From assembly GCA_021604825.1 (NCBI GenBank), contig BQJS01000032.1, positions 1 to 30,032 on the forward strand: DNA of 30,032 bases, given 5' to 3'. Both the position numbers and the translations under genes were made by a program. Every line of letters starts with the position of its first letter. Position 1 is the stretch's first letter. This DNA is from Phycisphaerae bacterium (GTDB lineage Bacteria > Planctomycetota > Phycisphaerae > UBA1845). Positions 1 to 16,103 of this stretch are shown here, piece after piece. Below the pieces are notes generated by a model. The model did no database searches. It saw only the letters and a list, made by a program, of their open reading frames with translations, and was not told where the DNA came from.

Positions 1-2184
1 CGTCGTGAACGTCGAATTGACCAGCGAGAACGTTGGCGTGATGTCGAGTACGTCGTCTGGTGCGATCAGGTCGACGGAATCGCCGGCGTCCATTTCCACA
101 ATCGTCGAAGCACCGGAATGGATCGCGACACCGTTGCGCCGCAGTGTGAAGGGTACGGGCTGGGCAAATTCCATTTTGATGCGCACGGTTGGCGTGAAGC
201 TGTAGGTGAACTGCTGATGCAAATCCGTGTCTACTTTTAGATCCAAAATCAAATAGCTGCCCCAGATCGTGTATTGGCCGAACAACGTCCAAATCGGAAT
301 CTCCGGAACTTCAAGCTGCACACCTGGAGGCGCGCCCAGTGCTTTCAGAATCCACTTGTCCATGTCCATGCTGAGCGTCGTGAATTGATCGGAACCACTG
401 GTGACCAACGTTCTTCCATTGGCGACGGACGTCAGTGCAGGGTTTGGCGGCACGGACATATTGGGCGTGTCCAGGTTGCCGCCGATTCCCGTCAATGCTT
501 CGATCGGAACCGGAATGTCGAACGGCGTGCTGACCAATGGCAATTGCTCGTTGATCACGGAAACCGTTCCGCCATCTGTGTCGAGTCCGACGATGGTCCC
601 CGTTCCGCCCAAATTGATCGAAGGAAACATGTTGACGGAGTCGCAACCAAATATGCAAGCCTCAGCCGTCACGTTCGCGGTGACGTTGGCGCGGGCGTCA
701 AGGTCCATGTTCAATTGGGGGCTGTTGACGTGAACGTAAGGCCCGCTCTCGGTTTCAACGCGGACCGATGTGTTGATGGTGACCAGATCACCTGCACGGA
801 ATTCATCTTGAGCGGGACCAGCCAGCGTGACATCGACCGGATACTTGACGCCGACTTGGCCCGGTCCAATGTCTTCGAACTTGATTTGGAAACCGAAGTC
901 GCCAGTGACGCCCGCATAGACGCCAGCACCAAATTCGCTGCCCGCAATGTTGACCACGTTGCGATCGGCGCGGAAGTCGTTGCTGTTGATCGTTAGGAAT
1001 TCAACGCGATCGGAGTTGCGCGGTTTTGCTTGTGTGCCCGGTCCCCACATGCTTTGGCCGGCATTTTGAAACGAAACACTGTATGCCGGTACGCACGAGA
1101 TTCTTGCTTCCCAACCGGCTTTGTTGACGATGTTGTCGGATACGAACTTGAACGTCAGGCTGCCGTCGGGTGCGTTGGACGTGATGGTTCCGGGCGCTGT
1201 TCCAGTTCCGTCGCTTCTCGGAAAGTACACGCCGATGAGTGGAGCGTTCGTGCTGTTGCCATCGTAGATCTCCAACCGATCGAAAGGGTTGGCCGGCAGA
1301 GGCGGGGTTTCTTCAATCTCGAACATGAGGAATTCAAAACGAAGCTTCTCACGGCTGGGTTCGACCGGAATAAAGGTCTTGATGAAATTCTCCGAATCAC
1401 CGTGGTTCCCAAAAAACCCCGGCCGCTGGGGGCCACCGGAATCGTAGAACCGACCCGAGCAGGTGACGACGGTTGTGTTGTCCATGAAGTATTGCGCCGT
1501 TTCGTCGTGATTGGCGCGGGCTGAAGATGTAGCAGCAATCGAAATAAGGGTGGCGACCAGCGCAAGATGGCGGTTGGGTGATCGGCGCAAGGTTTGGCGC
1601 GAACGCACCAGGCATCCAAGGCCGAGGGCGACGAGTAGGCATGTTGCAGGTTCGGGGACAATGACTCTGTAGTCTTGCCCTGTATCGACCGACGGGATCT
1701 GATTGAAATTCAAATCGCCAAAGACCAGGTTGCTTAGATTCAAAAAGTAATCGCCCGTTGCGGCGAGCGGGTCAACCGAGATGCTGACGGTTGCGAAGTC
1801 GAACGTGCCCACGCCGATACCGTTGATGACATCGTCGGCGATGCTGCCAAACACTCCGGACGTGTACCCGTTGCCTGCCGTGAGTGATTCGGTCGTTGGA
1901 TCAACGACAATGCCCAGGTTCCAATCCGCATCGGTGAACGCAACGCTATCAAGGGTGAACATCCCCGATTGCGAAAGTTCCTGAATTCGAAATTCGCCAT
2001 TGACCAAACTCTCCGCAGTGGATAATCGCACCGTGACATCAAAAGTGTCGCCTGGTGACACTGCGGTTGAGTGTGGATTTCCGAATGGGTCAACGATGCT
2101 AGCGGTCACGGTTGATGCGGACACGTTCGCTGGCAAACAAAATCCAGCAAGCATTGCAACGATGGTAACGATGCACTTGGACAT
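1..2184 (-). CDS. Secreted protein with an internal PEP-CTERM signal followed by a CUB domain (partial, 3' end outside window)
   Basis: Reading the minus strand from ATG 2184 gives one uninterrupted frame of 728 codons to the left edge. A GGAGAAG Shine-Dalgarno lies about 6 bases before the ATG. Residues 1-24 are a signal peptide (MSKCIVTI, then AMLAGFCLPANVSA). Residues about 25-170 form a beta-rich, cohesin-like region (SPGDTFDVTVRLS). Residues 176-200 are a textbook PEP-CTERM signal: VPEPAT, hydrophobic CLLVALGLGCLV, then RSRQTLRR. Such a signal normally ends a protein, but here the frame continues into a second signal-peptide-like segment (residues 206-222, ending SSARA) and a CUB domain (residues about 242-364; paired Cys242 and Cys364; DRLEIYDGNS; GWEARISC). 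The remaining 360 residues are beta-rich and unrecognised. The PEP motif would direct exosortase processing at the envelope. Either two genes have fused by loss of a stop, or translation can restart internally (GTG 1608 or TTG 1590). The domains are clear; how the product is processed is unknown. Confidence 0.8.
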   Translation of the reverse strand, partial: MSKCIVTIVAMLAGFCLPANVSASTVTASIVDPFGNPHSTAVSPGDTFDVTVRLSTAESLVNGEFRIQELSQSGMFTLDSVAFTDADWNLGIVVDPTTESLTAGNGYTSGVFGSIADDVINGIGVGTFDFATVSISVDPLAATGDYFLNLSNLVFGDLNFNQIPSVDTGQDYRVIVPEPATCLLVALGLGCLVRSRQTLRRSPNRHLALVATLISIAATSSARANHDETAQYFMDNTTVVTCSGRFYDSGGPQRPGFFGNHGDSENFIKTFIPVEPSREKLRFEFLMFEIEETPPLPANPFDRLEIYDGNSTNAPLIGVYFPRSDGTGTAPGTITSNAPDGSLTFKFVSDNIVNKAGWEARISCVPAYSVSFQNAGQSMWGPGTQAKPRNSDRVEFLTINSNDFRADRNVVNIAGSEFGAGVYAGVTGDFGFQIKFEDIGPGQVGVKYPVDVTLAGPAQDEFRAGDLVTINTSVRVETESGPYVHVNSPQLNMDLDARANVTANVTAEACIFGCDSVNMFPSINLGGTGTIVGLDTDGGTVSVINEQLPLVSTPFDIPVPIEALTGIGGNLDTPNMSVPPNPALTSVANGRTLVTSGSDQFTTLSMDMDKWILKALGAPPGVQLEVPEIPIWTLFGQYTIWGSYLILDLKVDTDLHQQFTYSFTPTVRIKMEFAQPVPFTLRRNGVAIHSGASTIVEMDAGDSVDLIAPDDVLDITPTFSLVNSTFTT

Positions 2185-2424: not shown

Positions 2425-2991
2425 ATGGCGTCAGATCGCAACGCGACGGAAATTCTCGACCGGCTTAGCGGTGGCGATCCATCGGCTGCCGACGAGCTTC
2501 TTCCGCTCGTGCATGACGAACTGCGTGCGATTGCGGCGGTTCGGATGCGTGGACAGAATCCCGGTCATACGTTGCAGCCAACAGCGCTGGTGAACGAGGC
2601 GATCGTTCAACTGCTCGGAAGCAAGAACGCGAGTTGGCAGAGTCGAGCGCATTTCATGGCGGTGGCTGCAACTGCGATGCGGCAGATTCTGATCAAGCAT
2701 GCGCGGCGGGGAAATGCTGAAAAACGCGGCGGCGGATGGCAGCGCGTGACACTCAGTCAAGCCGTTTCACCCGGCAAGAATCAAGATTGGGATATTGAGT
2801 CATTGAATGAAGCGCTCGTAAAGCTCGCGACCTTGAGTCCACGTCAATGCCGAATTGTCGAATTGCGATTCTTCGGTGGGCTGACTATAAAGGAAACGGC
2901 TTGCGCGCTGGGCGTAAGTACGACGACCGTCGCGGACGATTGGACGGCAGCGCGGGCATGGCTGTCGATCCAGTTGGCAAATCATGACTAA
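2425..2991 (+). CDS. ECF-like RNA polymerase sigma factor (TIGR02999-type)
   Basis: This 188-residue protein matches the planctomycete-expanded ECF-like sigma family. Region 2 contains LLPLVHDELRAIAAVRM, HTLQPTALVNEAIVQL and FMAVAATAMRQILIKHARR (residues about 25-95). Region 4 contains LSPRQCRIVELRFFGGLTI, ETACALGVSTTTV and DWTAARAWL (residues about 137-180), a helix-turn-helix that would read a -35 element. The start is ATG 2425 with a weak AAGG about 10 bases upstream, behind a good promoter. Its last 8 bases overlap the start of the kinase gene, so the two are probably translationally coupled. In this family the sigma factor is commonly paired with a Ser/Thr kinase, and the inference is that the kinase relays an envelope or cytoplasmic signal to it. 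No anti-sigma factor is present. Confidence 0.92.
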   Translation: MASDRNATEILDRLSGGDPSAADELLPLVHDELRAIAAVRMRGQNPGHTLQPTALVNEAIVQLLGSKNASWQSRAHFMAVAATAMRQILIKHARRGNAEKRGGGWQRVTLSQAVSPGKNQDWDIESLNEALVKLATLSPRQCRIVELRFFGGLTIKETACALGVSTTTVADDWTAARAWLSIQLANHD

Positions 2992-5911
2992 TCCAGACCA
3001 AACCCATCACGAAAAAGTCTGCGCGATATTCGTTGCGGTTCGGCGCTTGGCCCCCGATGAGCGCGGCGCTTACCTCGATAAGGCATGCGGTTCTGATGCA
3101 GAATTGCGCCGCGACGTCGAGATGTTCCTTTCAGTCGATGAGGAAGACGGCGACGCGCTGGCCACTCAGGCACTGGGCGATAGATTCGAAGAATTTGTGG
3201 CACAGGCGATCGTCGGCGACGATGCACTTCCCGAATCCATTGGCAAGTACCGCATCATTCGCAAAATCGGCGAAGGTGGAATGGGCGTCGTGTATGAAGC
3301 ACGACAAGAGAATCCGCATCGCAGCGTGGCGTTGAAAGTGATTCGGCCTGGCGTCACCACACCGAAACTGCTGCGCCGCTTTCAGCACGAAGCGCAAGTG
3401 CTGGGCCGCTTGCAGCATCCTGGCGTGGCGCATATTTACGAAGCTGGCGTGGCTGACACGGGTCAAGGCATGCAGCCGTTTTTCGCCATGGAGTTGATCG
3501 AAGGCCGACCGCTCCTCGAGCACATCAACCACTACCAGTTGAGCGCCTCTCAGCGGTTCACGCTGCTTGCGAACATCTGCGATGCCGTCGAACACGCTCA
3601 CCAAAAAGGTGTGATTCACCGCGATTTAAAGCCTGCGAACATTCTCGTGACCAACGCCGGGCATCCGAAAGTGCTGGATTTCGGTGTCGCTCGTGCCACC
3701 GATTCGGATGTGCAAGTGACTACGATGCAGACTGATGTCGGGCAACTCATCGGGACGCTCGCCTACATGTCGCCCGAGCAAGTTGTCGCCGATCCCTTGG
3801 CGCTCGATACCCGTAGTGACGTTTATGCGCTGGGCGTTCTCGCCTACGAAGTGCTTGCCGGCCGTTTGCCGTATGACATTGGTAACCGGATGATTCACGA
3901 AGCCGCCCGCGTCATTCGCGAGGATGATCCAACGAGTATCGGGACAATCGACCGCTCGCTTCGTGGCGATGTGGAGACGATGCTCCTCAAAGCACTAGAG
4001 AAAGACAAGACACGCCGTTATCAATCCGCCGGAGAATTTGCGGCAGACATTCGTCACTTCTTAAAAGATGAACCCATCGTCGCGCGTCCGGCTAGCACGT
4101 TCTACCAAGTGCGTAAGTTTGCGAAACGTCATCGCACGTTGGTATCGGGGGTCGTCGCGACTTTTCTCGCTCTGGTCATAGGGTTGGTTGTGAGCATCAG
4201 CATGTATTGGCAGGCGGAGCGTGCGCGTGATTCAGAAAGTGAACAACGCGCCATCGCTCAGCTAGAAGCGGATAAGGCAAAAGCAATCAACGATTTCATT
4301 TTGACTGGTTTGCTTGAATCTTCGAACCCATGGAAAACGTATAGCCGCGATGTCTCGATGGTGGATGTACTCGACAATCTTGCAGCATCCGCATCGGAAA
4401 CGTTCACTGATCAGCCGGCCCAGGAGGCGGAAAGCCGCCACACGCTTGGCGTCACGTACAACGGGCTCGGAGATTTCGAGAAGGCGATCGAACAGTTTAA
4501 TATCGCAGCCCAACTGCGACGCAAGCTGCATCCGGACGGGCACGACGATCTGGCGGAAAGCTTGCTACAAGTTGCGTTCACTCTGAATACCTCCGGGCAA
4601 TACGACGAAGCTGAAATGAATGCCCGCGAATCGCTCAGTATTCTTCAAAAACTGCATGATGACACGGACAAGTCGGTTATTAGGTGCAAGACTGCGTTGG
4701 GGCAAATCCTGATGCGAATGGGCGACTACCAAGCGGCAGAACCAATACTTCGCGAATCCCTTGAGCTTCGTCGCAAGTACCTTGGCGATGATTTGCAGCA
4801 AGTGGCTCGTGGAGCCAATCAGCTCGGCTCACTGCTGAACGCAGTCGATCGCAACGAAGAAGCTGAACCTCTCATGCGGGAAGCGTATGACATTTGCAAG
4901 AAAATCAAACCGGATCATCCGGCGACAGCCAGCTGCATTAACGACCTCGCTGCCGTCGTACGAGAGTTGGGCAGGACGGACGAGGCAATCGAACTTTATC
5001 AAATTTCGTTGGCGATGTATCAAAAGCATCTGGGGCCAGAAAACCACCGCACGCTGGGCGTCAAACGAAATCTCGCCAACGCCCTTCGTATGGATGGAAA
5101 CATTGAAGAAGCAGAGCCACTGTTGCGTGATGTCGCCGATGTGAGCGAACGAACGCTTGGGCTGGAGCATCCTGACACGCTCATCGCCCTCAATACGCTG
5201 GCGCTCCTTCTTCATAAGTCCGACCGTATCGAAGAAGCTGCGCCGATCTATGCAAGGGTCGTCGAGATCTCGAAGAACACCCTTGGTGCAAACCATCGTG
5301 ATACGTTAAGCGCGACATACAACTTGGCTTGGTTGCATCGTAACCGTAAGAAACCGGAAATAGCCGAACCGCTATTTCGTGAAGTCGTCGCGGGATTTCG
5401 CGCCAAGCTTGGCGATACGCATGGCGACACGATCACCGTGATGGGCGGATTGGCGCAATGTCTGGTCGAGCTGGGAAAACTCGAGGAAGCCGAAACAGTC
5501 TATCGCACGATCCTGGAAGCTCATCAAGCAAAATTGGGTGAAAGCGCTCCGGGTTTGGCCAAGCCGCTCAATCAATTGTCGGATGTGTTACTGGCACAAA
5601 AGAAATTCGACGCAGCATTGCCATTCATGAGTCAATGCCTGGCGATCTTGAAGTCAGGTCCGTTGGCCGATCATTGGCAGATCGCAGAACTGCGTAGCAA
5701 GATGGGTGGGTGTCTATCCAACCTGGGACGATTTGCGGAAGCTGAATCGAATCTTTTGGAGAGTTTTGAGGCTCTTGAAAAGAACGACGAAGCTCCGAAC
5801 CGTGCGATCGTAGAGGCACTCGATCGCATCATCGCCATGTATGAATTACTCGGAGATTCGGTGGAAGTTGAAACCTACAGAACAAGACGATTCGAACGCC
5901 AGTCCGAATGA
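2984..5911 (+). CDS. Membrane Ser/Thr protein kinase with C-terminal TPR array
   Basis: A 975-residue PASTA-less Hanks-type kinase. After an N-terminal helical region (1-85), the kinase domain spans about 88-360. It has a glycine loop GEGGMGVVY (96-104), VALK with Lys118, Glu136 in the C-helix, HRDLKPAN with Asp214, DFG at 232-234, and GTLAYMSPEQ (about 257-266), so every catalytic residue is present. One transmembrane helix follows (about 386-406). The C-terminal 490 residues are about ten 42-residue kinesin-light-chain-like TPRs (EEAEPLLRD, LGPEN/LGLEHPDTL spacing), likely a protein-binding sensor on the far side of the membrane. The gene starts inside the sigma gene (8-base overlap), so they form one operon. 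The phosphorylation target is unknown; the cognate sigma factor is the obvious candidate by context. Confidence 0.93.
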   Translation: MTNPDQTHHEKVCAIFVAVRRLAPDERGAYLDKACGSDAELRRDVEMFLSVDEEDGDALATQALGDRFEEFVAQAIVGDDALPESIGKYRIIRKIGEGGMGVVYEARQENPHRSVALKVIRPGVTTPKLLRRFQHEAQVLGRLQHPGVAHIYEAGVADTGQGMQPFFAMELIEGRPLLEHINHYQLSASQRFTLLANICDAVEHAHQKGVIHRDLKPANILVTNAGHPKVLDFGVARATDSDVQVTTMQTDVGQLIGTLAYMSPEQVVADPLALDTRSDVYALGVLAYEVLAGRLPYDIGNRMIHEAARVIREDDPTSIGTIDRSLRGDVETMLLKALEKDKTRRYQSAGEFAADIRHFLKDEPIVARPASTFYQVRKFAKRHRTLVSGVVATFLALVIGLVVSISMYWQAERARDSESEQRAIAQLEADKAKAINDFILTGLLESSNPWKTYSRDVSMVDVLDNLAASASETFTDQPAQEAESRHTLGVTYNGLGDFEKAIEQFNIAAQLRRKLHPDGHDDLAESLLQVAFTLNTSGQYDEAEMNARESLSILQKLHDDTDKSVIRCKTALGQILMRMGDYQAAEPILRESLELRRKYLGDDLQQVARGANQLGSLLNAVDRNEEAEPLMREAYDICKKIKPDHPATASCINDLAAVVRELGRTDEAIELYQISLAMYQKHLGPENHRTLGVKRNLANALRMDGNIEEAEPLLRDVADVSERTLGLEHPDTLIALNTLALLLHKSDRIEEAAPIYARVVEISKNTLGANHRDTLSATYNLAWLHRNRKKPEIAEPLFREVVAGFRAKLGDTHGDTITVMGGLAQCLVELGKLEEAETVYRTILEAHQAKLGESAPGLAKPLNQLSDVLLAQKKFDAALPFMSQCLAILKSGPLADHWQIAELRSKMGGCLSNLGRFAEAESNLLESFEALEKNDEAPNRAIVEALDRIIAMYELLGDSVEVETYRTRRFERQSE

Positions 5912-12655: not shown

Positions 12656-14458
12656 ATGGATTATCTTAAGTCACCCACACGCAACATGTTGTTCACAGGC
12701 AAGGGCGGTGTCGGTAAAACGTCAATGGCATGCGCGACTGCGGTTACCCTGGCCGATCAAGGCAATCGCGTCCTGTTGGTCTCGACCGATCCGGCTTCAA
12801 ATCTTGACGAAGTTCTCGCAACAACGCTTGCGAACCGACCAACCAAAGTCGAATCAGTTGCGAATCTCTGGGCGATGAATATCGATCCTGAACAGGCAGC
12901 ACACGAGTATCGCGAGCGGATGATAGCGCCCTACAGAGGTGTCTTGCCGGATGCGGCGGTGCAGAGCATCGAAGAGCAGTTTTCTGGATCGTGTACGCTG
13001 GAGATCGCGGCGTTTGATGAGTTCGCAAAGCTGCTTGGTGATGCGACCGCAACGAACGAGTTTGATCATGTTATCTTCGATACCGCTCCCACTGGGCATA
13101 CCCTTCGCTTGCTTACTTTGCCCTCTGCGTGGTCCGGATTCATGGAGACAAATACGTCGGGGACTTCGTGTCTGGGACCCCTCGCAGGATTGCAAGCCCA
13201 GCAAACGATTTACAAATCCACCGTCAAAGCGTTGGGCGACCGGGAGAAAACAACGCTCATCTTGGTAACGCGTCCCGAACCCTCTGCCTTGCGAGAAGCT
13301 GACCGTACAAGCCGCGAACTTCGTGAACTTGGAGTTGGGAATCAGCACTTGATTGTCAATGGTACTTTTGCGGCGAGTGATCACTCAGATTCAATTGCCA
13401 CGGCCATGCAGGAACGGTGCGAGGCGGCTATTTCATGCATGCCTTCTGGCCTCACCGAGTTGCAGCGAACAACCGTTCCACTAGCGCCATCCAGTCTTAT
13501 TGGAATTGCGTCTCTGCGAAATCTTGGTCGCGATCCGGCGCAACACAATCCGACTTCTGCGAACTTCAGCGAGCGAGCATCAATCGTAGAAGCTGAGATG
13601 CGTTCCATGCATGACCTTGTCGAGGAACTCGCCGGGAAAGACCATGGCGTCATCTTGACCATGGGCAAAGGTGGCGTGGGAAAAACGAGTGTCGCAGCCG
13701 CAATCGCGGTGGCTCTTGCTGATATGGGCAAGAAGGTTCACCTATCGACAACCGATCCGGCTGCACATCTCACGACCTCGCTGGCCGAGGAACAACTCGA
13801 GGGGCTGACGGTAAGCCGCATCGATCCGGCTGAAGTGACAGCCGCCTACCGAGACGAAGTGATGCGAACAGCCGGTGCAAACCTTGATGCGCAAGGGAAA
13901 GCGCTTCTCGATGAAGACCTCCGTTCGCCATGCACCGAAGAAATCGCCGTGTTTCGGACCTTCGCACAAGTTGTGGCTGAAGGCGAAAAGGGCTTCGTCG
14001 TGTTGGACACTGCCCCTACGGGACACACAATTCTCTTGCTCGATTCGGCGCTGGCCTATCATCGAGAGGTGACCCGTCAAGCCAGCGAAATGCCAGAATT
14101 CGTTGAGGAGCTTTTGCCACGACTTCGCGACCCGGACTACACCCGCATTCTGGTCGTGACCCTGCCCGAATCGACCCCCGTCCACGAGGCGGCGAGGCTG
14201 CAACAGGATCTACGTCGCGCAGAGATCGAGCCATTTGCTTGGGTCATTAATCAATCACTTACCCCACTCACAGTGAAAGCCCCGGTTTTGGTTGGGAGAC
14301 AACTCAGCGAGATGCCTCTGATCGACGAAGTCCTTTCTGAGCACGCCAAACGAACCGTATTAATTCCTTGGCTCGTTGAATCCCCGACAGGCTTAGGCGG
14401 ATTGCGCAAGTTGATCGAAGCCGATATAAAACTGCAAGCAACCGGAATCCTACCATGA
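12656..14458 (+). CDS. arsA: ArsA arsenite-stimulated ATPase (two-domain)
   Basis: 600 residues, the usual full length for the double-headed ATPase. Each half has a deviant Walker A, GKGGVGKTS (residues 15-23 and 337-345), and the signature DTAPTGH (142-148 and 451-457). The metal-site cysteines are present: Cys113 (GSCTLEI), Cys172 (SCLGPL) and Cys426 (SPCTEEI), against Cys113, Cys172 and Cys422 in the R773 protein. It normally energises the ArsB permease to expel As(III) or Sb(III). ATG 12656 is chosen because the upstream extension overlaps arsD and lacks homology. Its stop overlaps the next ATG by 4 bases. No permease gene follows in this window. Confidence 0.95.
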   Translation: MDYLKSPTRNMLFTGKGGVGKTSMACATAVTLADQGNRVLLVSTDPASNLDEVLATTLANRPTKVESVANLWAMNIDPEQAAHEYRERMIAPYRGVLPDAAVQSIEEQFSGSCTLEIAAFDEFAKLLGDATATNEFDHVIFDTAPTGHTLRLLTLPSAWSGFMETNTSGTSCLGPLAGLQAQQTIYKSTVKALGDREKTTLILVTRPEPSALREADRTSRELRELGVGNQHLIVNGTFAASDHSDSIATAMQERCEAAISCMPSGLTELQRTTVPLAPSSLIGIASLRNLGRDPAQHNPTSANFSERASIVEAEMRSMHDLVEELAGKDHGVILTMGKGGVGKTSVAAAIAVALADMGKKVHLSTTDPAAHLTTSLAEEQLEGLTVSRIDPAEVTAAYRDEVMRTAGANLDAQGKALLDEDLRSPCTEEIAVFRTFAQVVAEGEKGFVVLDTAPTGHTILLLDSALAYHREVTRQASEMPEFVEELLPRLRDPDYTRILVVTLPESTPVHEAARLQQDLRRAEIEPFAWVINQSLTPLTVKAPVLVGRQLSEMPLIDEVLSEHAKRTVLIPWLVESPTGLGGLRKLIEADIKLQATGILP

Positions 14459-14933: not shown

Positions 14934-16103
14934 TCACGGTATAAGTGCGACCCGAAAGCCGAGGTTGTCGAATTGGTCCGACGAGTGCATCACATCGTCG
15001 ATGTCGAAAACAGCCATGCCACCAGCTGTGTCCCAGGCGCCATCGTGGATCCGACGAATGTCCGACTCAGGAACGGTCTCCGTGAACTCCATTACGTTGC
15101 CGGCTTGGTCGAAGGTGCCGTAAGGGCTCGCGCTGTTTTCGTGAGTCCCGACTTCCGTGCGATTGTAGGGTGCGCCGATGGTATAATCGCCTATGTTTCG
15201 GAAGTGCGTTGCGTTGTTCCCCGGGTCGGGATCAATCAAATCGTTGTCCGGCTTGGGGTCTGAACTCGTCCCGTAATTCCAGTAGTTCCCAGTCACGCCG
15301 TCATTCTTGTGATAGGCGGCCTTGTACCACTCGCTGTCCGTCGGGAGAATCCAGGTGGCGTCCGGCTCGCGGACGACGTCCTCCAGATGATTGTCTGAGT
15401 TCTCGTGTATCCCGTTAATAAAGTATGAGCCATCCTCGGTGGTGGACAAGTTCTGCGTGCCGGTTGGTTGGCCGTTGTGCAGCCAGTTGACGAAGCGAAC
15501 CGCGTCGGCCCAGGACACATAGTTCACAGGCCGGTTCGCCCAGTCGAACGCGACACTGTACGTGTAGCTGCCGGACTCACCCGCACGTTTAATATTGCAC
15601 CCGATACGGGTCGGATCGGCGTCGTAGTCCATCCTCGTGTGATACAAGTTGTACGTATCGGTCGCGGCTACGGCATTGAGAAACGTGACATATTGGCCGG
15701 CAGTCACTTCGTACTTTCCGATGTTATATGTGTACGCGACTCCGCCGTAAAAAGTCGGGTCCCCATTCTGAAGCCTGGACTGCTCGCCGGCGTTGCTAGG
15801 GTTCCCAATGGTGACGGCCTCGATCACCACTTCCTGCGTCGTTCCGAATGCCAATTGGAATCCGGCGAAGTCGAACACGTCGACGTCCAGGTCGCCATCG
15901 AAGTTGAACGAATCGCAGCCGGCGCCCAAACCGCCACCAGGACCGCCCAGGCAACTGGGAAATTCGGCGTAATCAACCGCATCGACACTTCCGTCGCCAT
16001 TGAAATCGCCCAAGCCTCCCGCCCGCGCGAAGGGCACAGTCTGAACAAGAATCAGGCCAATGGCCAGCGTCAAGAATATCGCCACACTCCGGTTGCGCAT
16101 CAT
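14934..16103 (-). CDS. Secreted protein: dockerin-like EF-hand pair plus FGE-sulfatase (SUMF1-like) domain
   Basis: 389 residues from ATG 16103, with AAGGAG 7 bases upstream; an upstream in-frame ATG would add 12 residues without a Shine-Dalgarno. Signal peptide at 1-28 (ending PFARA). Residues about 32-87 contain two Ca-binding loops, DFNGDGSVDAVDY and NFDGDLDVDVFDF, in a dockerin-like pair. Residues about 98-388 form the formylglycine-generating-enzyme fold: YNIGKYEVTAGQYVTFLN, NYVSWADAVRFVNWL, WILPTDSEWYKAAY, DQAGNVMEFTE and GFRVA. The catalytic Cys pair of true FGE is not visible (GFRVA, where enzymes have a Cys nearby), so a binding or structural role is more likely than sulfatase activation. 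Not in an operon. Confidence 0.88.
   Translation of the reverse strand: MMRNRSVAIFLTLAIGLILVQTVPFARAGGLGDFNGDGSVDAVDYAEFPSCLGGPGGGLGAGCDSFNFDGDLDVDVFDFAGFQLAFGTTQEVVIEAVTIGNPSNAGEQSRLQNGDPTFYGGVAYTYNIGKYEVTAGQYVTFLNAVAATDTYNLYHTRMDYDADPTRIGCNIKRAGESGSYTYSVAFDWANRPVNYVSWADAVRFVNWLHNGQPTGTQNLSTTEDGSYFINGIHENSDNHLEDVVREPDATWILPTDSEWYKAAYHKNDGVTGNYWNYGTSSDPKPDNDLIDPDPGNNATHFRNIGDYTIGAPYNRTEVGTHENSASPYGTFDQAGNVMEFTETVPESDIRRIHDGAWDTAGGMAVFDIDDVMHSSDQFDNLGFRVALIP

Follow-up and report, generated by a model that had tools for sequence, protein, structure and literature searches.

Phycisphaerae is a bacterial group known mostly from environmental DNA. The PEP-CTERM sequence is described as a terminal signal. 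On one Phycisphaerae contig, such a signal lies in the middle of a single open frame, and a second signal-like peptide and a CUB domain come after it. The question raised by this locus is whether the frame encodes one secreted protein or two. The window, meaning the whole stretch of DNA that was analyzed, is 30,032 nucleotides long. In the available part of Haft et al. (2006, PMC1569441), the motif is followed by fewer than 10 residues in 87% of PEP-CTERM proteins, and the few long-tailed ones are suggested to be possibly non-functional.

Architecture of the fused gene

The gene lies on the minus strand. It starts at an ATG at 2184, with a GGAG seen directly 8 bases upstream, and the frame is open down to base 1, giving 728 codons without a stop at the point where the edge of the window is reached. 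The first signal peptide covers residues 1-24 (2113..2184, minus) and is followed by a cohesin-like domain of about 150 residues (residues 25-173; 1666..2112, minus). The internal PEP-CTERM signal occupies residues 176-196 (1597..1659, minus) and is composed of the VPEP motif (V176-P-E-P179), a hydrophobic helix with its core ending at V193, and the start of an Arg cluster, R194-R205. The Arg-rich loop (residues 194-206; 1567..1605, minus) is both the basic end of the PEP-CTERM and the n-region of a second signal-peptide-like segment. This second segment spans residues 207-224 (1513..1566, minus), with a hydrophobic stretch at residues 207-221 and a predicted cut at SSARA224/N225. The CUB-containing half begins at residue 225 and continues past the window edge (1..1512, minus). 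Its CUB domain, residues 278-361 (1102..1353, minus), reaches 23.9 bits with PF00431, above the cut-off of 21.4. The translation and the profiles thus confirm the architecture given in the original prediction, namely an open minus-strand frame with a mid-frame PEP-CTERM, a second signal-like peptide and a CUB domain.

A frame-shift or overlapping-gene reading of the junction was considered and is unneeded, as there are zero in-frame stops. Promoter-like sites in a scan of the window were within chance, and 5 terminator-like sites were found against 3.2 expected (sd 1.3).

The strength of the internal signal was measured by profile search. With TIGR02595, the 728-aa product scored 16.5 bits and its first 205 residues scored 18.0 bits, so that the cut-off of 16 is just reached; the Pfam profile PF07589 gave 16.2 bits, below its cut-off of 20.7. 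The signal is not at the extreme C-terminus, since at least 532 residues come after it, and the window gene is therefore a variant rather than a canonical PEP-CTERM protein.

The same junction in related genomes

The fused junction is kept in frame in the window and in three other genomes, at identities down to about 50%. The closest copy, L001/L033 from the Phycisphaerae MAG OFTM112, is 83% identical to the window, L034 is about 70% identical, and L036 about 50%. The L001 frame is 2632 aa long and carries PKD, DUF11 and FG-GAP domains and a dockerin-like end. VPEPA and the [A/V]xA site are at the expected place in 4/4 fused proteins (window, L033, L034 and L036). The Arg loop differs in length among the relatives, and the reading frame is kept in all four. 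Database entries P0002 and P0005 are L034 and L036, respectively, and are not independent. The L036 product meets an in-frame TAA after its residue 418, downstream of the CUB domain and well beyond the junction (G491:C167). Because of this stop, the copy may be broken or mis-assembled; the TAA may reflect damage, mis-assembly or a real end.

The distribution of the fusion was determined by searching related genomes. Within the order of the L001 genome, 13/114 genomes gave any match: the gene is fused in G001, G487 and G491, and the CUB gene stands alone in G420 and G468. In seven others, the match is only to first-half relatives or to a CUB domain within a different protein, or is weak, and the G002 copy, whose contig begins inside the CUB half, was scored as neither fused nor unfused. 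The database protein P0003 is also CUB alone. A family-level alignment search matched 5/51 genomes, none beyond those of the order-level search, and an even draw across the phylum matched 1/392, which was G001 itself. A protein search with the first half alone gave 662 candidates, none of them at E 1e-3. Two plasmid records carry CUB-only partial matches.

Unfused relatives of the first half (L039, L040, L046, L042 and L048) end in VPLPGA or PAPGA plus a basic tail, not in VPEP; from their sequences, these ends are perhaps another sorting motif. At L040 1507-2716 (G430:C9), two unfused first-half paralogues lie directly in tandem.

The age of the fusion follows from the same comparison. The original prediction had offered a recent loss of a stop codon as one origin. 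This is rejected, because the same fusion is present in L033/L001, L034 and L036 with synonymous sites near or past saturation. Nor are the homologs always split at the junction, the outcome it had named as contrary evidence: three other genomes have the fused gene, and two genomes plus P0003 have CUB alone. An assembly or sequencing artefact, in which the fusion would exist only in the contig, is already refuted by the same junction in the separate assemblies of L001, L034 and L036, and its probability is practically nil.

The conserved cut site also bears on whether the chain could remain in one piece. The two middle segments could form an uncut helical hairpin that tethers both halves to the inner membrane, and a continuous frame with two neighboring hydrophobic segments, joined by an Arg loop, is consistent with such a membrane protein. 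However, the [A/V]xA site is kept in 4/4 fused proteins, and it aligns by eye with the signal peptides of the unfused CUB proteins; in L037, L038 and P0003, the signal peptide is at the position that corresponds to the internal one of the fused proteins. A helix that needs no cut has no reason to keep an [A/V]xA site, and this counts against the uncut hairpin, which is considered unlikely.

Neighboring genes and history of the fusion

A divergent ECF sigma factor is encoded at 2425..2991 on the plus strand (PF07638, 184.8 bits), and beside it a Ser/Thr kinase with TPR repeats at 2984..5911, also plus (PF00069, 154.1 bits). The sigma-factor gene, together with the beginning of the kinase gene, also adjoins fused L001, L034 and L036 and unfused L037 of G420; the flank examined around unfused L038/L052 of G468 showed neither gene. 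The CUB gene therefore stands alone at the same locus in G420, which indicates that the fusion is dispensable. Elsewhere in the window, an ArsA-type ATPase with two nucleotide-binding halves is encoded at 12659-14455 (plus).

Trees were built for each half. In the tree of first halves, the four fused sequences group together with moderate support (80/87). In the tree of CUB halves, fused L036 stands beside unfused L037 of G420 (100/100), and this pairing requires at least two changes. One fusion followed by a later loss in G420 would be the simpler account; the same pair may instead have fused twice at one site.

Signal strength and selection at the junction

TIGR02595 scores in the fused relatives were 22.8 bits for L033 and 21.1 for L036, both above the cut-off of 16, and 14.2 for L034, below it. 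With L034 under the TIGR02595 cut-off and the window under the Pfam one, the internal signal may be loosening, that is, losing strength as a sorting sequence. The exosortase, PF09721, is present in 6/6 of the relatives' genomes examined.

Selection was measured as dN/dS between the window and L033 by the Nei-Gojobori method, with segment borders within two residues of the parts listed above. The cohesin-like body gave 0.04 and the CUB part 0.08. The PEP-CTERM gave 0.26, the second signal 0.27 and the first signal 0.21; all the ratios are rough, because synonymous divergence between the two is 0.9-2.5 outside the Arg loop and is often beyond computing in wider pairs. The Arg loop, with 8 comparable codons, gave 1.4, indicating no constraint. 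Both inner signals therefore evolve like the N-terminal signal, neither frozen nor free.

These measurements bear on a neutral fusion, in which the PEP-CTERM would be a dead leftover and only the second signal would work. The suggestion on long-tailed examples in the available part of Haft et al. (2006, PMC1569441), the sub-threshold L034 score, and a motif dN/dS exceeding that of the domains all point in this direction. Against it, VPEPA is retained in 4/4 fused proteins at near-saturated synonymous divergence, the value of 0.26 resembles that of the first signal, and L033 and L036 score above the cut-off. A dead PEP-CTERM is accordingly rated as quite unlikely.

How rare internal PEP-CTERM signals are

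PEP-CTERM matches were examined in five related genomes, and 175/179 were terminal and 4/179 internal. TIGR02595 gave 51 and 57 matches in G001 and G002, and all 108 were extended downstream: a stop is reached within 35 residues of the motif start in 105/108, and 3 run on. In G487, G420 and G491, 71 of 138 matches were extended; a stop lies within 40 residues in 70 and 1 runs on. The 71 were made up of 30 reported loci, 40 with an open frame of at least 300 aa (long frames were chosen deliberately) and G491:C167. The other 67, one with a frame of exactly 300 aa and the rest shorter, are excluded from the count. The PEP-CTERM of L034, at 14.2 bits, was too weak to enter the lists of 179 matches.

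In 4/4 internal cases, the chain goes on past the PEP-CTERM to a basic loop and then a second signal-like segment. Two belong to the cohesin-like/CUB family, and two to a second family of tandem paralogues. Internal signals at 4/179, together with a junction in frame in four genomes, indicate more than chance.

The junctions were also scanned by a crude signal-peptide rule of our own (basic n-region, hydrophobic core, small residues at -3/-1). Exactly one internal site, at the junction, was found in 12/12 fused proteins (4/4 of the CUB family and 8/8 of the second family). As background, eleven further window proteins, 6409 aa in total, gave 2 sites, of which one is by eye near a true N-terminus. 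The rule is weak on four unfused controls, where it found the full signal in 1, a core without a cut site in 1 and nothing in 2, and it missed the N-terminal signal of P0085.

A second fused family

In G001, G002, G486 and G488, two PEP-CTERM paralogues are fused head to tail in proteins of about 405-410 residues. The family consists of L136-L139 and the database proteins P0084-P0090, of which P0085/P0086 appear to be L138/L139 and thus are not independent entries. P0089 and P0090 are only 41-42% identical, and P0088 and P0090 look N-terminally short. The single stop counted in L138 and in L139 is the end of the frame. The order of elements recurs: after the first PEP-CTERM come a basic loop and a segment ending in AQA or KA. 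At G487:C125:16656-17859 (L140, L158), the pair is unfused, and the separate genes are in different frames with an 8-base stop/start overlap ATGGGTAG. This overlapping pair is plausible as the state before fusion. The first halves of the two fused families gave no sign of kinship outside the sorting tail by BLASTP (E 17), and their profile comparison aligned only the sorting tail.

Both families were inspected for internal starts. A separate CUB protein could also be made by ribosomes that initiate within the junction: the window has an in-frame GTG (193) and TTG (199) at which translation of an intact second signal could begin, and L033 has an ATG. An ATG is also shared at one place in L136-L139, so internal starts are possible in the paralogue family. 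However, L036 has no ATG, GTG or TTG from the PEP motif to the middle of the second signal, the only L034 start that would provide a basic n-region lies within the PEP-CTERM helix, and P0089 and P0090, for which protein sequences only are available, do not carry the methionine. Internal initiation is therefore viewed as highly improbable.

Cohesin-like and dockerin-like modules

A cohesin fold is predicted for the first half of the window protein. The Pfam cohesin profile PF00963 gave no match in the window protein, and the best values in relatives, 19.7 bits for L039 and 18.5 for L048, do not reach the cut-off of 24.1; the domain is therefore labeled cohesin-like. Among solved structures, a profile search yielded no more than a weak cohesin lead (5n5p, E 0.17).

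At the other end, the L001 C-terminus has a dockerin-like repeat with 22.1 bits for PF00404, just under the cut-off of 22.9. The window stops short of this end. The unfused protein of G420 (L236) had no PF00404 match at its end and only sub-cut-off EF-hand matches there. The AlphaFold2 model of the dockerin-like end had a pLDDT of 49.6, too poor for a structure search.

Two other dockerin-like sequences were seen. In the window, an FGE-sulfatase-type protein at 14937-16064 (minus) carries, close to the N-terminus, a dockerin-like repeat (PF00404 20.7 bits, cut-off 22.9), and is a possible further cohesin partner. At L039 2232-2970, the next gene encodes a similar secreted protein that by eye ends dockerin-like.

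Proposed mechanism

We lean towards the reading that the gene encodes a bacterial polyprotein, from which signal peptidase I would free the CUB half and the exosortase would process the cohesin-like half. The first signal peptide would export the cohesin-like domain. The PEP-CTERM helix would then halt transfer and leave the Arg cluster inside, and the second hydrophobic segment would take the same Arg cluster as its n-region and restart export of the CUB half. Signal peptidase I would cleave after A224 and release the CUB protein, and the exosortase would treat the cohesin-like half at the PEP motif as it does with any ordinary PEP-CTERM substrate. Two neighboring genes for secreted proteins are the probable source of the fusion, which would then have become locked in, since the second half relies on the start of the first.

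The original prediction had also proposed a polyprotein, with the exosortase as the splitter. The conserved fused junction supports the polyprotein reading, in which the cutting is predicted. The weight shifts from one enzyme to the other: after an exosortase cut at the PEP motif and nowhere else, the second segment would still anchor the CUB half in the membrane, and signal peptidase I acting at SSARA/N is therefore likelier to free the CUB half.

A broader and rather doubtful extension is that Phycisphaerae repeatedly evolved exosortase-linked polyproteins, each giving equal amounts of a PEP-CTERM-anchored cohesin and a giant adhesin released by signal peptidase, the dockerin end of which would bind the same cohesin. 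If true, the two products would be a self-assembling surface pair encoded by one frame.

Comparison with known systems

The gene shares the signal peptide, PEP motif, helix and basic cluster with PEP-CTERM/exosortase sorting (TIGR02595, EpsH/PF09721). It differs in that the signal is internal, with a further stretch of about 500 residues (window) to about 2,400 residues (L001) behind it that has its own export signal. FbcH, the cytochrome b/c1 polyprotein of Bradyrhizobium, has an internal signal sequence and is cut by signal peptidase into two proteins. The likeness is one bacterial chain with an internal signal sequence, with the cut only predicted here; the difference is that FbcH gives respiratory subunits and has no PEP-CTERM or exosortase. 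To our knowledge, cellular polyproteins cut by signal peptidase are rare in bacteria. A limited literature search gave no paper combining PEP-CTERM with a polyprotein, and no bacterial precedent was recognised in it. In the excerpts available on viral polyproteins cut by host signal peptidase, an internal signal peptide likewise separates two products, whereas the gene here is a cellular bacterial one.

A cohesin-dockerin "planctosome" has been proposed for freshwater planctomycetes, according to the available part of PMC6461901. It likewise places planctomycete cohesin and dockerin modules outside cellulosomes, but as separate proteins with other anchoring domains. In the present family, the cohesin-like domain and PEP-CTERM are in one chain with a CUB protein, and a relative has the dockerin-like end.

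Mass spectrometry of one published exosortase mutant never recovered peptides that cover the PEP-CTERM, as given in the portion of PMC12188702 at hand. In the fused proteins, by contrast, a cut would separate the large domains that flank the junction; this makes them a natural reporter of both exosortase and signal peptidase, read out by size. Internal PEP-CTERMs that are conserved and lead into a second export signal run counter to the suggestion, in the available text of Haft et al., that long-tailed examples are possibly non-functional.
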